The notes under the pieces are model-generated. The model searched no databases. It had not been told where the DNA came from and was given only the letters and a program-made list of their open reading frames with translations. 63,487 nucleotides of DNA from Bacteroidaceae bacterium (GTDB taxonomy: Bacteria > Bacteroidota > Bacteroidia > Bacteroidales > Bacteroidaceae), in NCBI GenBank assembly GCA_017534815.1, contig JAFXVS010000021.1:1-63487 (forward strand). Direction: 5' to 3'. This document shows positions 20,735-63,151 of the stretch, one piece after another. The first letter of the stretch is position 1, and each line of letters starts with the position of its first letter. Made by a program: the position numbers and the translations under genes.

Positions 20735-20868
20735 CGTACCGTTGGCTCTGCCGTCATCGCTTGCGCTTTCGTAACAATGTGAAGAAAGAACGTACTTTCG
20801 TTCGACAATAAAAGTGAAAAATATGCTTTTTCCCTTTGTATTGTCCTCACTTAATCGTACCTTTGCAC
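20735..20868 (+). repeat. Promoter-bearing repeat, copy 1
   Basis: This stretch matches 27874-27969 on the opposite strand at roughly 90 percent outside a 34-base insertion (20754-20787, approximate). Shared parts are CGTAC-GTTGGCTC-GCC, the inverted repeat GAACG...CGTTC, TTAAAAGTG-like spacer, and TTTTTCCCTTTGTATTGT through TCACTTAATCGTACCTTTG. The repeat ends exactly with the promoter of the downstream gene in both places. Confidence 0.8.
20835..20865 (+). promoter_or_regulatory. Consensus Bacteroidota promoter of the cobalamin-riboswitch operon
   Basis: TTTG at 20835-20838, exactly 19 bases, then TACCTTTG at 20858-20865. This is a full match to the housekeeping sigma consensus. Transcription should begin near 20872, just at the 5' edge of the riboswitch. 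Confidence 0.8.
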
Positions 20869-20869
20869 C

Positions 20870-21125
20870 CGCATTTGGTTCCCCCCCCACATCTGATTTG
20901 GGCGGTGTGGCGACGGGGCTAAGATGGGAATGGGGTGTGAATCCCCGACATTACCCGATGCTGTGAGTCCTTTTTCAACAGGCTGCCAACAGTGTCACTG
21001 GAGTCAAGGAAGGGTCTGACGGACGTGACCTTGAAATCTCTGGGAAGACCGGACAGCGTGGAGGACGAGTCAGAAGACCTGCCATTTGCCAGCGGAACGC
21101 GTGTCTGCGGGACTACGGACATCGA
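20870..21125 (+). promoter_or_regulatory. Cobalamin (B12) riboswitch
   Basis: The leader carries the landmarks of the cobalamin aptamer in order: the GGGAAT...GGTG.GAATCCCC core (about 20934-20957), GCTGTGAG (20960-20968), TGTCACTGGAGTCA (20993-21006), CTGGGAAG (21040-21047), and the B12 box AGTCAGAAGACCTGCCA at 21068-21084. Such elements usually lower expression when adenosylcobalamin (or another cobalamin) is bound. Here it precedes an anion transporter and an acyl-CoA carboxylase, not a B12 transporter or biosynthesis gene. Confidence 0.92.
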
Positions 21126-21178
21126 CGGAAACATACTACATATTTTATTTTATATCAGTTTAAGTGTTGTAAATGCCG

Positions 21179-21208
21179 GAGAGCCCCGGCAGTGATGCCC
21201 GGGCACTC
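21179..21208 (+). promoter_or_regulatory. Possible expression-platform hairpin of the riboswitch
   Basis: GAGAGCCCCGGC and GCCCGGGCACTC can form 10 of 12 pairs around the loop AGTGAT. It lies between the aptamer and the start codon at 21240. No T run follows, so it does not look like an ordinary intrinsic terminator; it may control translation or Rho access. Confidence 0.5.
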
Positions 21209-21239
21209 CTTTGGTGACTATTCTTAATTATTCAAGTAT

Positions 21240-22745
21240 ATGTCAATTTTTAACAACAAACTGTTCCACCTGCATTTGTTCAGCAGGTTGGAACCGCAGA
21301 GAGGTGGAAAGTTCGGCAACAAGTTGTCGAAGAGGTTTAACAACAAGTCGTTCATCGCGTCGCTCATTTCGGTCATCGCCATGGTGGTGGTGGCTTGTCT
21401 GCCGACGGAGTGTTTCGGCATTGAGGGTCTGACGGTGGTGCAGCAGCGCATCATCGCGCTCTTCGTGTTCGCCACGCTGATGTGGCTGACGGAGGCGATC
21501 CCAGCCTGGGCAACGTCGGTGTGCCTCATCTGCATGCTCCTGTTCGCCACGTCGGACAGTGCGCTGAGTTTCTATTCGTCGGGTCTGGAGAAGACGGACA
21601 TGCTGAGCTACAAGGTGCTCATGGCGACGTTTGCCGACCCGATCATCATCCTGTTCCTGGGTGGTTTCGTGCTGGCTATCGCAACGACGAAGAGTGGTCT
21701 GGACGTGGTCATGGCGCGCTATCTGCTGAAGCCTTTCGGCAAGCGGAGTGAGGTGGTGCTCCTGGGTTTCATCCTCATCACGGGGCTGTTCTCGATGTTC
21801 ATCAGCAACACGGCGACGGCGGCGATGATGCTGACGTTTCTGGCTCCTGTGTTCAAGGCGCTGCCTGCTGACGGCAAGGGTCGTGTGGCGCTGACGCTGG
21901 CCATTCCGCTGGGTGCCAACATCGGTGGTATCGGCACACCCATCGGCACGCCTCCGAACATGATTGCGCTGAAATATCTGAACGACCCTGAGGGCATGAA
22001 CCTGAACATCGGCTTCGGCGAGTGGATGATGTACATGGTGCCCATGACGCTCATCCTGCTCGTCTTCGGCTGGTGGCTCTTGTTGCGCCTGTTCCCCTTC
22101 AAGCAGAAGACGATCGAACTGAACATCGAGGGCAACATCCAGCACAACTGGCGCACGACGGTGGTGATCGTGACTTTCATCGTGACGATTCTCTTCTGGT
22201 TGCTCGACAAGGTGACGGGTGTGAATGCCAATACGGTGGCGATGATTCCTATCGCTGTGTTTGCCGCCACGGGTGTCATCACGGCAAAGGACTTGCAGGG
22301 TGTGAACTGGAGCGTGCTCTGGATGGTGGCCGGCGGTTTCGCATTAGGTGTGGCGCTGAACGAGTCGGGCTTGGCAGAGAATGCCATCCAAAGCATTCCG
22401 TTCAATGAGTGGTCGCCGCTTGTGATTCTCATCATCGCCATGTTGGTGTGCTACGCCATGTCGAACTTCATCAGCAACACGGCCACGACGGCGCTGTTGG
22501 TTCCTGTGCTCGCTGTGGTGTGCAAGGGTATGGGCGACCGCCTCGAAAGCATCGGCGGTGTGACCACCATGCTTATCGCCATCGCCATCACGGCATCCGT
22601 GTCGATGTGTCTGCCTATCAGTACGCCTCCTAACGCCATCGCCCACTCGACGGGTCTGGTGAAGCAGAACGAGATGCTGAAGGTGGGTATCGTCATCGGC
22701 GTGGTCGGCATGGTGCTAGGATATTTCACGCTTCGTTTAATGTAA
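21240..22745 (+). CDS. DASS/SLC13-family sodium:anion (dicarboxylate-type) transporter
   Basis: The 501-residue membrane protein has two inverted-repeat halves, each with the Ser-Asn-Thr motif that binds sodium and substrate (SNT 189-191 and 412-414). The two associated proline loops GTPIGTPPN and PISTPPNAIA are also present. This is the architecture of VcINDY-type transporters for succinate and other di- or tricarboxylates, though sulfate members exist. It is the first gene behind the cobalamin riboswitch and is followed after 9 bases by the biotin carboxylase gene. Direction (import or export) cannot be told from sequence. Confidence 0.9.
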   Translation: MSIFNNKLFHLHLFSRLEPQRGGKFGNKLSKRFNNKSFIASLISVIAMVVVACLPTECFGIEGLTVVQQRIIALFVFATLMWLTEAIPAWATSVCLICMLLFATSDSALSFYSSGLEKTDMLSYKVLMATFADPIIILFLGGFVLAIATTKSGLDVVMARYLLKPFGKRSEVVLLGFILITGLFSMFISNTATAAMMLTFLAPVFKALPADGKGRVALTLAIPLGANIGGIGTPIGTPPNMIALKYLNDPEGMNLNIGFGEWMMYMVPMTLILLVFGWWLLLRLFPFKQKTIELNIEGNIQHNWRTTVVIVTFIVTILFWLLDKVTGVNANTVAMIPIAVFAATGVITAKDLQGVNWSVLWMVAGGFALGVALNESGLAENAIQSIPFNEWSPLVILIIAMLVCYAMSNFISNTATTALLVPVLAVVCKGMGDRLESIGGVTTMLIAIAITASVSMCLPISTPPNAIAHSTGLVKQNEMLKVGIVIGVVGMVLGYFTLRLM

Positions 22746-22754
22746 AAGGAAAAT

Positions 22755-24269
22755 ATGATCAGAAAGATATTAGTAGCAAATCGTGGGGAGATAGCCATCA
22801 GGGTGATGCGCAGCTGCTACGAGATGGGCATCCGTTCGGTGGCTGTGTATAGCACCGCCGACCGCCTCTCGCGCCATGTGCTCTTTGCCAACGAGGCGGA
22901 GTGCATCGGTGGGGCAGCGAGCAGCGACAGCTATCTGAACATCGACCACATCATCGAGGCGGCTCGCAAGCACAAGGTGGATGCCATCCATCCGGGCTAC
23001 GGCTTCCTCTCGGAGAATGCGGAGTTTGCCCGCCGCTGCGAACAGGAGGGCTTCATCTTCATCGGTCCCCGTCCAGAGACGATGGAGGAGATGGGCGACA
23101 AGATCAGCGCACGTCGGAAGATGATTGAGGCTGGCGTGCCTGTAGTGCCTGGTACGGAAGAACCGCTGACGTCGGCAGAAGAGGCTGTGGCGGTGGCCAA
23201 GAAGATTGGCTTCCCCGTCATGCTGAAGGCGTCGATGGGTGGCGGCGGCAAGGGCATGCGTCTCATCGAACGGGAAGAAGATGTGGTGGAAATGTACAAT
23301 GCCGCCAAGAGTGAGGCCATGTCGGGCTTTGGCGACGACACGGTCTATATCGAGAAGTTTGTGGAGGAACCTCATCATATCGAGTTCCAGATCTTGGGCG
23401 ACAAGCATGGCAACGTCATCCACCTTTTCGACCGCGAGTGCTCTGTGCAGCGCCGTCATCAGAAGATTGTGGAGGAGAGCCCGAGCCCGTTCATCGACTA
23501 CAACCTGCGTATGGAGATGGGTGCCAAAGCTGTGGCTGCTGCCCGTGCCGTGGGTTATGAGGGGGCGGGAACCATCGAGTTCCTTGTCGATAAATACCAT
23601 AAGTTCTACTTCTTGGAGATGAACACACGACTGCAGGTGGAGCATCCCATCACGGAGGAAGTGGTGGGCATCGACCTGGTGAAGGAGCAGATTCTTGTGG
23701 CAGATGGTCAGCAGTTGCGCTATCGTCAGGAGGACATCCGTCAGCGAGGTCATGCCATTGAGTGCCGTATCTGTGCCGAGGACACAGAGCACAACTTCAT
23801 GCCATCGCCTGGCGTCATCCAGCAACTTACGGAGCCTCATGGCATCGGCACGCGCATCGACTCGTATGTGTATGAGGGCTATGAGATTCCTATGCACTAC
23901 GACCCGATGATTGGTAAGCTCATCGTGTGGGCAACGACACGCGAGTATGCCATCGAACGCATGCGCCGTGTGCTCTATGAATATAAGATTACGGGCTTGA
24001 CCACCAACATTCGTTATCTGCGTCGCATTATCGATGTGCCCGATTTCAAGCAGGGCAACTACAACACCTACTTCATCGAGCGCAACCAAGACAGGCTCCG
24101 TCCACGTCCGGGCTTCAAGAACGACTCGGAGCCGATGGCGGTCATTGCGGCCTACATAGACTATCTGATGAACCTTGAAGAGAATAACCCCACCACGTCC
24201 ACAGCGGAGAACACGGCAATCAGTCGCTGGAGGGCATTCGGATTGCAGAAAGGAGTGCTGAGAGTGTAA
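22755..24269 (+). CDS. Biotin carboxylase subunit of an acyl-CoA carboxylase
   Basis: The 504-residue ATP-grasp enzyme carboxylates biotin using ATP and bicarbonate. The N-terminal KILVANRGEIAIRV, glycine loop GGGGKGM (162-168), DRECSVQRRHQK and the catalytic EMNTRLQVEHP (288-298) are intact. About 50 extra C-terminal residues beyond a minimal AccC are present, but there is no fused biotin domain. Its partners are the next two genes, with which it overlaps (TAATG). This makes a complete BC-BCCP-CT enzyme, of the acetyl-/propionyl-CoA carboxylase class. Confidence 0.93.
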   Translation: MIRKILVANRGEIAIRVMRSCYEMGIRSVAVYSTADRLSRHVLFANEAECIGGAASSDSYLNIDHIIEAARKHKVDAIHPGYGFLSENAEFARRCEQEGFIFIGPRPETMEEMGDKISARRKMIEAGVPVVPGTEEPLTSAEEAVAVAKKIGFPVMLKASMGGGGKGMRLIEREEDVVEMYNAAKSEAMSGFGDDTVYIEKFVEEPHHIEFQILGDKHGNVIHLFDRECSVQRRHQKIVEESPSPFIDYNLRMEMGAKAVAAARAVGYEGAGTIEFLVDKYHKFYFLEMNTRLQVEHPITEEVVGIDLVKEQILVADGQQLRYRQEDIRQRGHAIECRICAEDTEHNFMPSPGVIQQLTEPHGIGTRIDSYVYEGYEIPMHYDPMIGKLIVWATTREYAIERMRRVLYEYKITGLTTNIRYLRRIIDVPDFKQGNYNTYFIERNQDRLRPRPGFKNDSEPMAVIAAYIDYLMNLEENNPTTSTAENTAISRWRAFGLQKGVLRV

Positions 24270-24793
24270 TGGAAATACAAGTTGGAAATAAGACCTTGGA
24301 GGTGACCCTGCTGAGCAAGGAGGGCAACCAAGTGAAGATAGACATCGACGGCAAAGTGTATGATGTGGATGTGGCGATGCTGCAGAACGGCACCTGCTCA
24401 CTCATCTACGACGGCAACTCGTACAATGCTGAGCTCATCCGTGAGAGTGGGGAGAAGCACTACCGTGTGAACCTCAACTACTCCACCTATCAGATTGACA
24501 TGCTCGATTCACAGGCGAAGTACATGAAGATGCGTCGTGGAGGCTCACAGGACAGCATTCAGGCCGACGTGATTACGGCGCCAATGCCCTGCAAGATTGT
24601 GAACATCTATGTGAAGCCTGGCGACTTGCTCAAGGCTGGCGACACCGTGCTGACGATGGAGGCCATGAAGATGCAATCGAACTACAAGGTGAGTGCCGAC
24701 TGTACCGTGAAGGACGTCCTGGTCGGGGTAGGGGAGAGTGTGCGTGTGGAACAGCCGCTCATCAAGTTGGACATTAAAAAGGAAGAAAAATGA
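24269..24793 (+). CDS. Biotin carboxyl carrier subunit of the acyl-CoA carboxylase
   Basis: The 174-residue carrier has a C-terminal biotinyl domain with the modification motif EAMKMQ (Lys134). The first 95 residues form a separate beta-rich region (KIDIDGKVYDVDV, NYSTYQIDML) that may play the BT-domain role of linking carrier to enzyme core; this is inference. A partner PMP hairpin (ITAPMPCKI) precedes the biotin turn as usual. It overlaps the biotin carboxylase stop by one base and the carboxyltransferase start by four. Confidence 0.92.
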   Translation: MEIQVGNKTLEVTLLSKEGNQVKIDIDGKVYDVDVAMLQNGTCSLIYDGNSYNAELIRESGEKHYRVNLNYSTYQIDMLDSQAKYMKMRRGGSQDSIQADVITAPMPCKIVNIYVKPGDLLKAGDTVLTMEAMKMQSNYKVSADCTVKDVLVGVGESVRVEQPLIKLDIKKEEK

Positions 24794-26226
24794 AACTGAC
24801 AGCAAGAGAACGTATAGAGACCCTGCTCGACCGCGGCACCTTCGTCGAGTTGGACAAGCATGTGGTGCATCGTTGCACCGATTTCGGTATGGAGAACAAG
24901 CGCATTGAAGGTGACGGTGTGATTTCAGGTTATGGCAAGATAGACGGACGCATCGTCTTTGTCTATGCCTTTGACTTTGCCGTCTTGGGAGGTTCGCTTT
25001 CAGCAGCCAATGCGCAGAAGATTGCTAAGGTGCAGGATCTGGCGCTGAAGAACGGCGCTCCCATCATCGGACTGAACGACTCGGGCGGCGCACGTATTCA
25101 GGAGGGCGTCGAGTCCTTGACCGGCTTCGCACATATATTTAAAAGGAACGTGATGGCCTCAGGCGTCATTCCACAGATTAGCGCCATTCTCGGTCCCTGT
25201 GCCGGTGGTTCGTGCTACTCGCCAGCCTTGACGGATTTCATCCTCATGGTGAAGGAGCAGAGCCAGATGTTCGTCACGGGACCCAATGTGGTGAAGGCTG
25301 TGACGAATGAGGATGTCGATAAGGAAACCCTCGGCGGTGCGTTGACCCACAATTCCGTGAGCGGTGTGAGCCACTTCATTTGCAACAGCGACGAAGAGAC
25401 CCTCATGACCATCCGCGAACTCATCGGCTTCATCCCCTCGAACAACATGGAAGATGCTCCAGTGCATCCTGTCACCGACGAGGTCTCACGCATCTGCCAC
25501 GAACTGGACAACGTCGTGCCGACTGACCCCAACGTACCCTACGACATCCGCAACATCATAGAACCCGTCTGCGACCAACAGTACTTCTTCGAGATTCAGC
25601 CAGAGTTTGCCAAGAACATCGTCATTGGCTTCGGACGTATGGCAGGACGTACCGTCGGTTTCGTCGCCAACCAACCGAATTTCTTGGCAGGTGCCCTCGA
25701 CATTGACGCTTCTGACAAGGCCGCACGTTTCATCCGCTTCTGCGACTGCTTCAACATCCCCCTCATCGCTGTGGAGGATGTGCCAGGCTTCCTGCCCGGT
25801 GTGCAGCAGGAGCACAACGGCATCATCCGTCATGGTGCCAAGATTGTCTATGCCTTTGCTGAGGCGACGGTGCCAAAGATCACCCTCATCACCCGCAAAG
25901 CCTATGGAGGTGCCTACATCGTGATGAACTCGAAGTGCATCGGTGCAGACGTGAACCTCGCCTATCCAACGGCTGAAATCGCTGTGATGGGAGCCGAAGG
26001 AGCCTGCAACATCCTCTATCGTAAAGCCACACCCGAAGAGCGTGCCGAGAAGATTGAGGAGTATCGCCAGAAATTCGCCAATCCCATGCCTGCGGCACAG
26101 TTGGGCTACATCGACGAAATCATCCAGCCCTGCGACACCCGCATCCGTCTCATTCAGGCGCTGGAGATGTCGCGCAACAAGAATCAGAGCAACCCGCCCA
26201 AGAAACATGGTAACATGCCATTGTGA
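24790..26226 (+). CDS. Acyl-CoA carboxyltransferase (beta) subunit, PccB/AccD-like
   Basis: The 478-residue carboxyltransferase has both crotonase-like halves: [13 protein letters not shown] and [16 protein letters not shown] in the N-domain, and [23 protein letters not shown] and TRKAYGGAYIVM in the C-domain. It transfers CO2 from biotin to an acyl-CoA. At the position that in Streptomyces separates propionyl-selective PccB (Asp422) from broad AccB (Ile420), it has Ile377, arguing against strict propionyl specificity. It begins directly at KLTARERIE, lacking about 30-40 N-terminal residues seen in relatives, including the paralogue at 58905. A terminator follows. Confidence 0.9.
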   Translation: MKLTARERIETLLDRGTFVELDKHVVHRCTDFGMENKRIEGDGVISGYGKIDGRIVFVYAFDFAVLGGSLSAANAQKIAKVQDLALKNGAPIIGLNDSGGARIQEGVESLTGFAHIFKRNVMASGVIPQISAILGPCAGGSCYSPALTDFILMVKEQSQMFVTGPNVVKAVTNEDVDKETLGGALTHNSVSGVSHFICNSDEETLMTIRELIGFIPSNNMEDAPVHPVTDEVSRICHELDNVVPTDPNVPYDIRNIIEPVCDQQYFFEIQPEFAKNIVIGFGRMAGRTVGFVANQPNFLAGALDIDASDKAARFIRFCDCFNIPLIAVEDVPGFLPGVQQEHNGIIRHGAKIVYAFAEATVPKITLITRKAYGGAYIVMNSKCIGADVNLAYPTAEIAVMGAEGACNILYRKATPEERAEKIEEYRQKFANPMPAAQLGYIDEIIQPCDTRIRLIQALEMSRNKNQSNPPKKHGNMPL

Positions 26227-26232
26227 GAAAGA

Positions 26233-26266
26233 AGCCCGTGCAATCAACGCTGCGCGGGCTTTTTAT
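26233..26266 (+). terminator. Intrinsic terminator of the riboswitch operon
   Basis: AGCCCGTGC (26233-26241) pairs with GCGCGGGCT (26252-26260), followed by TTTTATT. It closes the transporter-carboxylase transcript. Confidence 0.85.
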
Positions 26267-31023: not shown

Positions 31024-31097
31024 GGTTCCGTAGCTCAGCTGGATAGAGCAACAGCCTTCTAAGCTGTGGGTCTTGGGTTCGAATCCCAACGGAATCA
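31024..31097 (+). tRNA. tRNA-Arg (anticodon UCU)
   Basis: A complete cloverleaf: acceptor GGTTCCG/CGGAATC (one G-U pair), D-arm GCTC...GAGC, anticodon stem ACAGC/GCTGT with loop CTTCTAA and anticodon TCT at 31058-31060, T-arm with TTCGAAT. The discriminator is A (31097). CCA is not encoded. It reads AGA (and AGG) codons. Confidence 0.97.
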
Positions 31098-58486: not shown

Positions 58487-58900
58487 ATGAAGATTTCGAG
58501 AATCGACCACCTTGGAATAGGTGTGGAGAGCATCGACGCAGTGCTCCCTTATTTCGAAAATGTGCTTGGCCTGAAGTGCTATGCAGTAGAAGAAGTGGCT
58601 GACCAGAAGGTGAAGACCGCCTTCCTGAAAGTTGGCGAAGTGAAACTGGAATTGCTCGAACCAACGTCTCCCGAGTCAGCTGTTGCGAAGTGGCTGGAGA
58701 AGGGTGGCAAAGGTGTTCACCATGTGGCTTTCGCCGTTGAAGACGGTGTGGCTGAGGCACTCGTAGAGGCTGAAGGCAAGGAGATTCGTCTGATTGACAA
58801 GACTCCTCGTGCTGGTGCTGAGCAGATGAACATCGCTTTCCTGCACCCCAAGTCAACAGCCGGCATTTTGACAGAACTTTGCGAACCACAGAACAAGTAA
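58487..58900 (+). CDS. mce: Methylmalonyl-CoA epimerase
   Basis: The 137-residue vicinal-oxygen-chelate enzyme interconverts (R)- and (S)-methylmalonyl-CoA, linking the B12-dependent mutase to the decarboxylase. Metal ligands appear in IDHLGIGV (His8), GVHHVAF and LTELCE (Glu near the C-terminus). It starts the operon and is followed 4 bases later by the decarboxylase alpha subunit. Confidence 0.93.
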
Positions 58901-58904
58901 GACT

Positions 58905-60470
58905 ATGAGTAAGCAGACAGAAAGAATACAGGAGTTGATCGAACTCCGTCAGAAAGCGCGTCTGGGCGGTGGCGAGAAAGCTATCGACAAGCAGCACGCT
59001 AAAGGCAAGTTCACGGCACGTGAGCGTATTGCTATGCTCCTCGACGAGGGCAGTTTTGAAGAGTACGACATGTTCAAGCTCCACCGTTGCACCAACTTCG
59101 GTATGGAGAAGAAGCAGTATCTGGGCGATGGTGTCGTAACCGGTTCAGGTACGATTGGTGGTCGTCTCGTGTTCATTTTCGCTCAGGACTTCACGGTCAA
59201 TGCTGGTTCACTCTCTGAGACGATGAGCCAGAAGATTTGCAAGATTATGGATATGGCCATGAAGGTGGGTGCTCCAGTCATTGGTTTGAATGACTCAGGT
59301 GGTGCTCGCATCCAGGAGGGTATCAACGCTTTGGCTGGTTACGCAGAAATCTTCCAGCGTAACATTATGGCTTCAGGTGTGATTCCTCAGATTTCTGGTA
59401 TCTTCGGTCCTTGTGCTGGTGGTGCCGTGTACTCTCCTGCTCTGACCGACTTCACTCTCATGATGGAGAACACCTCATTCATGTTCCTGACAGGTCCTGC
59501 TGTGGTGAAGACTGTGACTGGCGAGGATGTGGATCAGGAGAGTTTGGGTGGTGCATCTGTTCACTCTACCAAGTCAGGTGTGACTCACTTCACAGCTGCC
59601 ACAGAGGAGGAAGCTATGGCGATGATTCAGCAGCTCATCTCTTACATTCCTCAGAACAATCAGGAGGAGACTCCACGTGTGGAATGCACAGACCCTATCG
59701 ACCGTCTGGAGGATTCCCTCAACGAAATCATCCCTGACAATCCTAATCAGGCATACGATATGTACAAGGTCATTGCGGCCACTGTCGATAATGGCGAATT
59801 CTTTGAGGTGCAGCCACGCTACGCTCAGAACATCATCGTGGGCTTCGCTCGCTTCAACGGTCGTTCTGTGGGTATCGTTGCCAACCAGCCTAGCAAGTTC
59901 GCAGGTGTGCTCGACTGCAACGCCTCTCGCAAGGGCGCTCGTTTCGTTCGTTTCTGCGATGCCTTCAACATTCCAATCGTCAGCTTCGTCGATGTGCCAG
60001 GCTTCTTGCCAGGTACAGGTCAGGAGTACAACGCTGTCATCCTGCACGGTGCCAAGTTGCTCTATGCTTACGGAGAAGCTACAGTGCCAAAGGTGACTGT
60101 CACGCTCCGCAAGTCTTATGGCGGTTCCCACATCGTGATGTCATGTAAGCAGCTTCGTGGCGACATCAACTACGCATGGCCATCCGCTGAAATCGCCGTG
60201 ATGGGTGCCAGTGGTGCAGCCGCTGTGCTCTATGCTCGCGAGGCCAAGCAAATCAAGGAAGAGGGTGGGGATGCTAAGGCATTCATCGCTGAGAAGGAGG
60301 AAGAATACTCCAAGCTCTTTGCCAACCCCTATCAGGCTGCTAAGTATGGCTACATTGATGATGTCATCGAGCCACGCAACACACGTTTCCGTGTCATCCG
60401 CGCCCTCGAGCAGTTGGCCAACAAGTCACTCACTAATCCCGCAAAGAAGCACGGTAATATTCCATTGTAA
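58905..60470 (+). CDS. mmdA: Methylmalonyl-CoA decarboxylase alpha (carboxyltransferase) subunit
   Basis: The 521-residue carboxyltransferase moves the carboxyl of methylmalonyl-CoA to biotin, giving propionyl-CoA. Landmarks: [45 protein letters not shown] and [12 protein letters not shown]. It has the N-terminal region ([20 protein letters not shown]) missing from the paralogue at 24790. Its neighbours (epimerase, OadG, biotin carrier, OadB) identify the sodium-pumping decarboxylase rather than an ATP-driven carboxylase, as there is no biotin carboxylase here. Confidence 0.93.
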
Positions 60471-60475
60471 ACATT

Positions 60476-61495
60476 ATGAGAAAGTTATTATCAATCGTCT
60501 CATTCCTCATAGCATCCTCAGCTGCTATGGCACAAGGCGCACACGACTTCAAGCTCAACGAGGTCTTTGTGCTGGGATGCCCCAAGCAGTGCACGGCTGT
60601 GGACGATAGCGGCTATGTGTCGCCTGCTATCGCAGAATCATGCCCCAAGCCTGAGTTCTATGTGGATGAATATGCTCAGCCAGCCTCTTGGATTGAGATT
60701 GAGAACACTTCTTATTCGACCCACGACATAAGAAACTGTTTCCTCACCATCAATCCCGCTGTGCTTGACAAGAACATGTCTGCACCTGAGCGTGAAAAAC
60801 TCATGTCAGTCATTCCTGCGGGCGATCCACGCACATCCATTGGCGCCAAGCAGCGCATCACATTCTTTGCTGATGGCCACACGAATCGTGGTACGCTTCA
60901 CCTCAACTTCACGTTGCCTGTGGGCGAGCCTTTCACCATTTATCTCTTCGACGGTAACGCGGTCGATTTGCTCGACTCCGTACGTGTGGAAGCCCTCCCT
61001 GTAGGTTCCAGTTACGCTCGTCTCGACGAGGGCAAATGGCAGGTATGTGAAGCCGATGACATGACGCCCAACGCTCCCAACGTGACCTACAACAACGACA
61101 AGATCAAGGAGTTCAAGGAGAAAGACCCACACGGCATCGCTATGACCCTCATGTGCATGGGCGTCGTGTTCTCCTGCCTCATTCTGCTCTTCGTCTTCTT
61201 CCATATCTTCGGTTGGGCGATGAACCGTGCTGCTAAGTTAGCCCGTGTACGTGCTATCCGTGCCATCCACGAGCAGGCAGCAAGGGTGGTCGAGATGGCC
61301 AAGCAAGGTACTACTGAGACCAAAGGTGTCGAGATGGAGAACTACGCTGCCGCTATCGGTCTGGCGCTCCACGAATACTTTGGTGGTACTCACGACCTTG
61401 AGTCAGGTATCCTCACCATCAATCAGACACCAACTACCTGGGCAGACAAGAGCCACGAGCTTCGTGTCACCCCACAGCATCATCAAGCAAACTAA
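60476..61495 (+). CDS. OadG-family gamma subunit fused to a periplasmic lamin-tail domain
   Basis: The 339-residue protein has a signal peptide (1-20), a lamin-tail-like beta domain (about 25-185: FKLNEVFV, SWIEIENTS, TSIGAKQRITFFAD, LHLNFTLPVGEPFTIYLFDG), a membrane helix (221-246) and a cytoplasmic tail with the OadG-like basic stretch. Gamma subunits normally are about 80-120 residues and just anchor the complex. The added domain would face the periplasm. It is placed between mmdA and the biotin carrier, so it belongs to the pump. Confidence 0.85.
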   Translation: MRKLLSIVSFLIASSAAMAQGAHDFKLNEVFVLGCPKQCTAVDDSGYVSPAIAESCPKPEFYVDEYAQPASWIEIENTSYSTHDIRNCFLTINPAVLDKNMSAPEREKLMSVIPAGDPRTSIGAKQRITFFADGHTNRGTLHLNFTLPVGEPFTIYLFDGNAVDLLDSVRVEALPVGSSYARLDEGKWQVCEADDMTPNAPNVTYNNDKIKEFKEKDPHGIAMTLMCMGVVFSCLILLFVFFHIFGWAMNRAAKLARVRAIRAIHEQAARVVEMAKQGTTETKGVEMENYAAAIGLALHEYFGGTHDLESGILTINQTPTTWADKSHELRVTPQHHQAN

Positions 61496-61510
61496 ATCAT
61501 TATTAAAGCA

Positions 61511-61939
61511 ATGAAAGAATATAATTATAAGATTAAGGGTGCTCCTTACAATGTGAAGATTCAGGGCATTGAAGAGAACATCGCAAAAGTTGAGGTCAAC
61601 GGCATCGAATTCGAGGTGGAACTCGAGAAGCCAGTAGCTCAGCCCAAACCAGTGGTGCGTGCCGTTGCCGCTCCCGTCAAGACGATTGAGGCTCCCAAGG
61701 CAGCTCAGGAAGCAGTCGAGGCAGGCGTATCAGCTGTTCGCGCTCCGCTGCCAGGCACCGTCAACGACATCAAGGTCACAGTGGGTCAGGCAGTCAAGAA
61801 GGGTGAGACACTTGTCATCCTCGAGGCCATGAAGATGGAGAACAACATCGACTCTGACCGTGACGGAAAGATTCAGGAAGTGAAGGTTCAGAAGGGCGAC
61901 ACCGTGATGGAAGGTTCCATCCTCGTCACGATTGCGTAA
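61511..61939 (+). CDS. Biotin carrier subunit of methylmalonyl-CoA decarboxylase
   Basis: The 142-residue carrier has a short N-terminal domain, a Pro/Ala-rich linker (42-72) and a biotinyl domain with EAMKMEN (biotin on Lys108). It carries the carboxyl group from MmdA to the OadB-type membrane subunit. The 39 bases to the next gene hold two copies of a TCAA(A)TTGTAAAT repeat. Confidence 0.93.
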   Translation: MKEYNYKIKGAPYNVKIQGIEENIAKVEVNGIEFEVELEKPVAQPKPVVRAVAAPVKTIEAPKAAQEAVEAGVSAVRAPLPGTVNDIKVTVGQAVKKGETLVILEAMKMENNIDSDRDGKIQEVKVQKGDTVMEGSILVTIA

Positions 61940-61978
61940 CAAGATAGTCAATTGTAAATCGTCAAATTGTAAATTACT

Positions 61979-63151
61979 ATGATGTTACTCGAAAGTGTTT
62001 CCACAATGGACTTTATCGGAACCAAGCTCGTTGACTTCCTGACATACACAGGCTTCGCCAATGTAGAATGGGCCAACATCATCATGATAGCTGTGGGCGC
62101 CTTCTTCATTTGGTTGGCCATCAAGAAGGACTTCGAGCCGCTGCTGCTCATTCCGATAGGTCTCGGCATCATTTTGGGAAATATCCCCTTCAAGGATGCC
62201 GGTCTTGAAATAGGTCTTTACGAGGACAACTCCGTACTCAACATCTTCTATCAAGGTGTTCGTCTCGGATGGTATCCTCCTCTCGTGTTCCTCGGCATTG
62301 GCGCTATGACCGACTTCTCGGCGCTCATCGCCAATCCAAAACTGATGCTAATCGGCGCAGCTGCCCAGTTTGGTATCTTCGGTGCTTACATGGTGGCACT
62401 TGCCCTCGGCTTCGAGCCCAACCAGGCAGCAGGTATCGCCATCATCGGTGGTGCAGATGGTCCTACAGCCATCTTCCTCTCCAGCAAGTTGAGCCCCAAC
62501 CTCATGGGAGCCATCGCCGTGTGTGCCTACTCCTATATGGCACTCGTTCCTGTCATCCAGCCAGGCATCATGAAGCTGCTCACCACTAAGGCACAGCGTC
62601 AGATTAAGATGAAGCCAGCCCGTCAGGTCAGCCAGACAGAGAAGATGCTCTTCCCCATCGTCGGACTGCTCATCACCACCTTCATCGTTCCGTCAGGTCT
62701 TCCCCTGCTCGGCATGCTCTTCTTTGGTAACCTCCTCAAGGAATCCACCAAGACGACTCGCCTTGCAAAGACAGCAGGCTCAGCCCTCAACGACATCGTG
62801 GTGATGCTCCTCGGTCTCACCGTAGGTTGCTCCACCCAGGCATCAGAGTTCCTCACTTGGAACACCATCTTCATCTTCATCATCGGTGCATGCGCATTCG
62901 TTGTGGCCACAGCCAGTGGCGTCATCTTCGTTCACATCATGAACATCTTCCTCCCCAAGGATCAGAAGATCAATCCGCTCATTGGCAACGCAGGTGTGTC
63001 AGCCGTTCCGATGGCTGCCCGCATCTCCCAGAACGAAGGTCTCAAGGCCGATCCCCACAACTTCCTTCTCATGCACGCTATGGGTCCGAACGTTGCAGGT
63101 GTCATCGGTTCCGCTGTTGCCGCAGGTGTTCTCCTCGGCTTCCTCTCGTAA
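61979..63151 (+). CDS. mmdB: Sodium-pumping decarboxylase beta subunit (OadB/MmdB)
   Basis: The 390-residue membrane subunit decarboxylates carboxybiotin and exports Na+. It has about 10 hydrophobic segments and the hallmark GGADGPTAIF with Asp160, which corresponds to the essential Asp203 of oxaloacetate decarboxylase beta. IGNAGVSAVPMAAR and the C-terminal HAMGPNVAGVIGSAVAAG are also conserved. Two adjacent ATGs start the frame; MDFIGTKL is a possible internal start. A terminator follows. Confidence 0.94.
   Translation: MMLLESVSTMDFIGTKLVDFLTYTGFANVEWANIIMIAVGAFFIWLAIKKDFEPLLLIPIGLGIILGNIPFKDAGLEIGLYEDNSVLNIFYQGVRLGWYPPLVFLGIGAMTDFSALIANPKLMLIGAAAQFGIFGAYMVALALGFEPNQAAGIAIIGGADGPTAIFLSSKLSPNLMGAIAVCAYSYMALVPVIQPGIMKLLTTKAQRQIKMKPARQVSQTEKMLFPIVGLLITTFIVPSGLPLLGMLFFGNLLKESTKTTRLAKTAGSALNDIVVMLLGLTVGCSTQASEFLTWNTIFIFIIGACAFVVATASGVIFVHIMNIFLPKDQKINPLIGNAGVSAVPMAARISQNEGLKADPHNFLLMHAMGPNVAGVIGSAVAAGVLLGFLS

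Follow-up and report, generated by a model that had tools for sequence, protein, structure and literature searches.

Why would a cobalamin riboswitch stand in front of a biotin-dependent acyl-CoA carboxylase? This question is raised by a stretch of 63,487 nucleotides (the window), which represents contig C45 in the draft genome of a Prevotella-like gut bacterium (2.31 Mb, 74.7% complete). Here, the riboswitch precedes an operon encoding a dicarboxylate transporter of the DASS family, a biotin carboxylase (BC), a biotin carboxyl carrier protein (BCCP) and an acyl-CoA carboxyltransferase (CT). Our answer, which we hold tentatively and with somewhat less than even confidence, is that an OFF switch frees a B12-independent carboxylase stand-in, supplying malonyl-CoA, together with a succinate transporter when B12 is lacking.

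Riboswitch, leader and operon

The elements of the locus are as follows.

20835–20865, + strand: promoter-like pair, consensus match by reading (TTTG at 20835–20838, a 19-base spacer, TACCTTTG at 20858–20865)
20859–21100, + strand: cobalamin riboswitch aptamer (RF00174, model positions 1–189 of 189, E 2e-18)
21098–21127, + strand: P13-like hairpin with the loop CGGGACUA, directly after the aptamer (fold)
21179–21208, + strand: second leader hairpin with a GUGA (GNRA-type) tetraloop (covariation in related leaders)
21240–22745, + strand: DASS family transporter, 501 aa (TIGR00785, 265.6 bits, cut-off 198.6)
22755–24269, + strand: BC, 504 aa (TIGR00514 accC, 661.5 bits, cut-off 626.5)
24269–24793, + strand: BCCP, 174 aa (PF00364, 50.4 bits, cut-off 22.1; EAMKM site)
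24790–26226, + strand: CT of the PccB/MmdA type, 478 aa (PF01039, 622 bits, cut-off 22.3)
26229–26264, + strand: terminator-like hairpin with a T run (hairpin scan)

An earlier sequence-only reading of this locus had described a well-formed cobalamin aptamer with a B12 box (AGTCAGAAGACCTGCC) starting at 21068 and had proposed a covariance search as a check. The Rfam search of the window confirmed the aptamer over the full model with 81.2 bits, well above the gathering score of 31.5; the only other gathering-level match in the window is a tRNA (31024–31097). A chance match was rejected in view of the E value of 2e-18 and the conservation of the switch across genera. The same reading was also right about the operon. 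Its intergenic gaps of +9, −1 and −4 bases follow from the coordinates of the open reading frames (ORFs), and all parts of a complete BC-BCCP-CT enzyme (BC, a biotinylated-type carrier and a PccB-type CT) score above their profile cut-offs with intact motifs. Both SNT motifs of the transporter, itself above the TIGR00785 cut-off, are visible in the alignment with VcINDY, its nearest relative in the PDB (E 8e-39). The terminator-like hairpin was singled out for its 14 pairs and its position immediately 3' of the CT stop; the scan itself is weakly selective, giving nine such sites per 6 kb versus 4.4 in shuffled sequences.

The top PDB match of the CT is the beta chain of propionyl-CoA carboxylase (PCC; E 1.3e-189). 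It stays below the whole-protein cut-off of the methylmalonyl-CoA decarboxylase alpha subunit TIGR01117 (737 versus 998.8 bits), and so does its paralogue in an Mmd operon further along the window (786.7 bits). We rejected the CT as a subunit of a Na+-pump decarboxylase: no membrane Na+-pump subunit was found among the four operon genes, the operon has its own BC, and the Mmd operon lies elsewhere.

For the leader, we compared 50 related sequences, with a few genomes counted under two locus identifiers. The string TAnnTTTG, the pair that we take to be the Bacteroidetes promoter consensus, occurs in 48 of the 50 at 130–300 bases 5' of the B12 box, a count made over a 170-base stretch and without a chance control. 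Together with the promoter-like pair at the start of the aptamer, this points to a transcript that most likely begins at the riboswitch. A P13-like hairpin with a similar loop is visible in related leaders, and CGGGACUA is a candidate partner of L5; the L5-L13 complementarity, judged by eye, has a mismatch in the window.

The hairpin with the GUGA loop, located between the riboswitch and the first gene, was seen among the fetched loci in own-genus leaders only, both where DASS and where BC comes first. Its covariation was evaluated in 14 leaders picked for carrying it (11 distinct) against 500 shuffles. Standard pairs make up 98.5% of all pairs, with seven double-change cells, and none of the 500 shuffles matched the pairing percentage, the double-change cells or the covariation score; the two remaining measures were equalled by 8 and 14 shuffles. 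A leader peptide encoded in this hairpin was rejected, as the hairpin covaries and reading frames vary among leaders (by eye). In two leaders (L100 and L093), a GTTA-rich repetitive stretch lies between the P13-like and the second hairpin.

The leader of the window is long, with 156 nt between the B12 box and the ATG, and its overall fold is no better than that of shuffled sequences (z −0.38; 36/100 as good). Therefore, an ON or OFF platform cannot be read from it. In 15 of the 50 related leaders, the B12 box is separated from the start codon by just 54–68 nt, similar to the second cobalamin riboswitch of this genome, which lies 5' of a TonB-dependent receptor (58 nt). In Xylanibacter ruminicola KHP1, four cobalamin switches were reported with many of the strongest B12 responders near them, and two targets were named; of 13 proteins that changed, 10 were at higher levels when B12 was absent, with no gene-by-gene direction given in the text (PMC11575231). 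Because the short leaders resemble that of the TonB receptor, and because of these reports on the B12 response, we consider an OFF switch the most likely sign.

The opposite sign would give the operon a different meaning: B12 would induce succinate uptake and a carboxylase running in reverse, from methylmalonyl-CoA to propionyl-CoA with a yield of ATP. Such an ON switch would place the import of succinate and the formation of propionyl-CoA on a single B12-dependent path, and the leader of the window is indeed unusual. However, the short leaders speak for repression, most known switches of the class repress (PMC11575231), and a Na+-pumping decarboxylase is already there for this step. We regard the ON switch as very unlikely.

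Conservation of the switch and the carboxylase

Each of the 45 genomes searched for the genus comparison has at least one RF00174 match. A CT orthologue (71–100% identity) is present in 32 of them; 28 of these 32 have the riboswitch upstream of the operon, with matching contig and strand. In the remaining four drafts (G008, G019, G038 and G040), the CT contig stops short of the expected leader, and a riboswitch is found elsewhere with its downstream side off a contig end. DASS matches with E ≤ 1e-40 occur in 22 of the 45 genomes, 17 genomes reach an identity of at least 87%, and no DASS match was found between riboswitch and BC in G043, G035, G016, G018, G020, G042, G004 and others. In G027, separate contigs carry a switch-led DASS homologue (57% identity) and a switch-led carboxylase. 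A further case is G060, from another genus, where the DASS gene between the switch and a small ORF followed by the carboxylase is reduced by a large internal deletion to its terminal parts (L267); a locus can shed its transporter and retain the switch. Judged by gene content, the carboxylase is the conserved riboswitch target and the transporter is optional, and we rejected the transporter as the main target on this ground.

This distribution bears on the view of the sequence-only reading that transporter and carboxylase form a module that deals with succinate and acyl-CoA when B12 is absent and has no particular part in malonyl-CoA supply. Transporters do recur after these switches, namely DASS in the window and in G027 and an AspT/YidE-type transporter in G025. 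However, the transporter is missing from many operons that keep the carboxylase, and we are aware of no reaction in the disposal of succinate for which a biotin carboxylase would be required. We therefore consider a pure succinate module unlikely.

A small protein accompanies the operon in 12 of the 45 genus genomes (L301–L312) and in G060 (L267, 2134–2502, − strand). It has 120–131 residues in the copies that are fully read (MDIYHSTY...ETFLPTxELLxITK). By the coordinates of the 12 copies, it lies directly between BC and either DASS or the riboswitch, 3' of the CT (G042) or downstream of the riboswitch where the contig breaks off (G008). It gave no Pfam match above cut-off, no NCBIfam match and no convincing PDB match, and it was not found in the genome of the window. 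It could be an accessory subunit.

Beyond the genus, the order BC-BCCP-CT was found in 23 loci (L157–L179) among the best 80 of 589 confirmed CT relatives in named genomes; some of these loci belong to genomes that are also in our other samples. Among the 17 loci given to Rfam (L160–L176), ten have a cobalamin match 5' of BC (L160, L161, L162, L164, L170 and L172–L176), and the switch-led loci include Parabacteroides An277, Bacteroides nordii and Paraprevotella xylaniphila. A search for the B12 box only found it in L157–L159 and L177, with no box in L178–L179. In Bacteroides sp. STD2_73 (L174, 1296–10786, − strand), four copies of the Bacteroidetes small RNA family FopS surround the carboxylase operon.

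Biotin carboxylases, the mutase and the proposed role

Next, we looked at biotin carboxylases in a family sample of 121 genomes, evenly drawn out of a larger group and mostly drafts, 86 of them of high quality. Absences in this sample come from profile searches, which a divergent replacement would escape. No genome has AccA above cut-off (0/121; 0/12 in a smaller first look), while 7 of 14 controls pass, and weak AccA matches share the coordinates of the CT or MmdA where compared. The C-terminal domain of biotin carboxylase occurs in 39 of the 121 genomes, one each (34/86 of high quality), and 82 gave no biotin carboxylase match. With the exceptions of G053 and G101, these 39 adjoin the CT of this operon, so that the operon holds nearly all ATP-dependent biotin carboxylases of the family sample. 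Conversely, a BC is present in all 37 genomes with the operon's CT (at least 71% identity), and in the draft genome of the window it is the sole PF02785 match found. In a published comparison, acetyl-CoA carboxylase was marked as common in 20 pooled Bacteroidetes, a phylum-level count that does not test Bacteroidaceae (PMC3199775).

The genome of the window also carries genes that fit a B12-dependent propionate route, part of them in a companion operon.

58487–63151, + strand: methylmalonyl-CoA epimerase, MmdA, an OAD-gamma-domain ORF (MmdD-like), an MmdC-like carrier and the Na+-pump beta subunit MmdB (61979–63151)

A methylmalonyl-CoA mutase (PF01642) matches on contig C77. As mutase and epimerase/Mmd operon are both found, the B12-dependent propionate route looks present on the basis of gene content. 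Rfam gave no RF00174 match at the Mmd operon (window and L300) and no riboswitch in the 14 kb around the mutase (L298), and we rejected a riboswitch on either of them. Regarding other switches, two further genomes, G002 (L120) and G024 (L124), show a cobalamin riboswitch followed by TonB-receptor-like, membrane and CbiK-like ORFs, named by eye.

The mutase was found in 31 of the 37 CT-bearing family genomes. The riboswitch precedes the operon in 18 of these 31 and in none of the six without mutase (one-sided Fisher p 0.012, a value that overstates independence because the genomes are related). Switch calls came from Rfam searches of the sequence upstream of the operon for 31 genomes and from coordinates for six own-genus genomes. 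In G075, the switch-led operon lies beside the mutase genes, in divergent orientation and with one 218-aa ORF between.

These results refine the metabolic logic of the sequence-only reading, in which a stalled mutase turns on the operon to move succinate and reroute acyl-CoA carboxylation. The link to the mutase fits, with the switch missing from all six mutase-less genomes, but the emphasis moves from the optional transporter to the carboxylase. Rerouting becomes more specific as well: because AccA is found in 0/121 genomes and a biotin carboxylase outside the operon in two only, the operon looks like a classical B12-independent substitute rather than a break with known riboswitch targets.

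How could such a substitute work? With plentiful B12 cofactor, the riboswitch, of the ordinary cobalamin class, would shut the transporter-carboxylase operon off. The silent carboxylase would then not work against the Na+-pumping methylmalonyl-CoA decarboxylase in a cycle that wastes ATP. Without B12, the mutase would stop, succinate would have to leave the cell, and methylmalonyl-CoA would be lost as an activated carboxyl donor. The switch would now free the DASS transporter for succinate and the BC-BCCP-CT enzyme, which would charge biotin with ATP and bicarbonate and carboxylate acyl-CoA, chiefly acetyl-CoA to malonyl-CoA. In this way, the carboxylase may keep fatty acid building going once B12 is exhausted.

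The CT sequence gives a hint on the substrate. Its motif GGAYIVM has Ile where PCC beta of human and Methylorubrum has Asp (GGAYDVM); the source organisms of the PCC beta chains beyond their PDB labels are our assumption. Asp at this position favours propionyl-CoA, and Ile goes with a broader substrate range. The MmdA of the window has Ile as well (GGSHIVM), and so the motif is weak evidence: it allows acetyl-CoA but proves nothing.

A propionyl-CoA carboxylase repressed by B12 just to avert a futile cycle with MmdABCD, with some minor other use in its absence, would account for the companion Mmd operon in the same window, for the nearest structures of the CT being PCC beta chains and for the missing switch where the mutase is missing. 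It gives no positive reason, however, for expression without B12, when propionyl-CoA from succinate is gone, and it leaves unexplained why hardly any biotin carboxylase other than the operon BC was found in the family. We rate this explanation as rather improbable.

Several observations weigh against a malonyl-CoA stand-in under B12 control. Two chains labelled as PCC beta in the PDB, 3n6r (Val) and 1vrg (Ile), are without the Asp, too. DASS proteins of known transport are often importers. The CT of the operon was not found in 84 of the 121 family genomes, and therefore the operon is not essential. Its presence does not entail the switch, either: in 13 of the 31 mutase-bearing genomes no riboswitch precedes the operon (in G084, one of these 13, the contig extends just 267 bases upstream of BC), and beyond the genus Rfam gave no cobalamin match at 7 of the 17 loci (L163, L165–L169 and L171), of which L163 is a close relative with a CT 92% identical to that of the window. 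Finally, an OadA-like protein is present in 111 of the 121 family genomes, and thus oxaloacetate may give carboxyl groups without B12 all along.

The OadA-like proteins open a wider explanation, which we consider possible but doubtful. The family, mostly without the usual acetyl-CoA carboxylase, would transfer carboxyl groups to acetyl-CoA by MmdA/MmdC, with OadA-like proteins in addition, and the B12 switch would pick the donor: methylmalonyl-CoA in the presence of B12, and in its absence either ATP and bicarbonate through the operon or oxaloacetate through the OadA-like proteins of G025 and G130. G025 has no CT orthologue of the operon, its single CT being 56% identical. Two riboswitches share a strand in this genome, one immediately 5' of an OadA/PycB-like carboxyltransferase (L126) and the other upstream of a LysR-type regulator (about 750 bases between) and the AspT/YidE-type transporter. 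In G130, which gave no biotin carboxylase match in the profile search, a riboswitch lies immediately 5' of a close homologue of this carboxyltransferase (L237). Biotin carboxylases and OadA/5S-type proteins can both carboxylate biotin without methylmalonyl-CoA, and for this reason we are drawn to a choice of carboxyl donor as the common theme. As a general trait of OadA-like genes, the riboswitch was rejected: among 30 such loci (L237–L266), an exact B12 box lies 5' of the gene in L237 only, with weaker, mismatched ones in L242 and L257, and Rfam on L237 and L238 matched in L237 alone.

With this locus, an enzyme of central carbon and lipid metabolism joins the B12 riboswitch targets in abundant gut and rumen bacteria, and it is tied to the mutase, on which the choice of succinate or propionate depends. 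Should methylmalonyl-CoA indeed be the donor, B12 supply would reach membrane lipid synthesis. The family sample also raises the question of the malonyl-CoA source in the 82 of 121 genomes without a detectable biotin carboxylase and in all 121 without a detectable AccA.

Relation to known systems

The sequence-only reading had set the operon apart from the usual targets of cobalamin riboswitches, and we agree: no earlier report of a riboswitch-carboxylase arrangement was found in the open-licence literature, supplementary target lists not covered. A reconstruction of cobalamin regulons that includes 11 Bacteroidaceae genomes gives B12 synthesis, B12 transport, cobalt transport and isozymes as targets, and the word 'carboxylase' is absent from its main text (PMC3766115). 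In Veillonella, a cobalamin switch lies 5' of the large subunit of the mutase (PMC7160235). Three further papers (PMC9896722, PMC10542786, PMC9600662) have no bearing on the arrangement. X. ruminicola KHP1 belongs to the same bacterial group, and no switch near its propionate-pathway genes was reported (PMC11575231). Altogether, we are probably dealing with a known riboswitch class on a target class for which no report was found, following the logic of known B12-independent substitutes.

Examples of this logic are metE and the B12-independent ribonucleotide reductases, isoenzymes under B12 riboswitches. The proposed release of a substitute once the B12-dependent enzyme has stopped would be shared with such isoenzymes, a target class named in the regulon reconstruction (PMC3766115). 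In contrast to them, the carboxylase is no isoenzyme of the mutase and would instead replace one use of the mutase product. With the RF00174 switches before TonB-dependent B12 receptors, the switch described here shares the full aptamer, the B12 box, the P13-like hairpin and the upstream promoter-like box, but it differs in the target operon and in the extended leader of the own genus with its additional conserved hairpin. Compared with the Na+-translocating decarboxylase MmdABCD, the CT is 57% identical to the MmdA of the same window, whereas the operon differs by encoding a biotin carboxylase and lacking a membrane decarboxylase subunit. A further comparison is with the acetyl- and propionyl-CoA carboxylases that have separate BC, BCCP and PccB-type CT: all three parts are shared, and what sets the operon apart is its riboswitch control and, in some relatives, the small extra protein.

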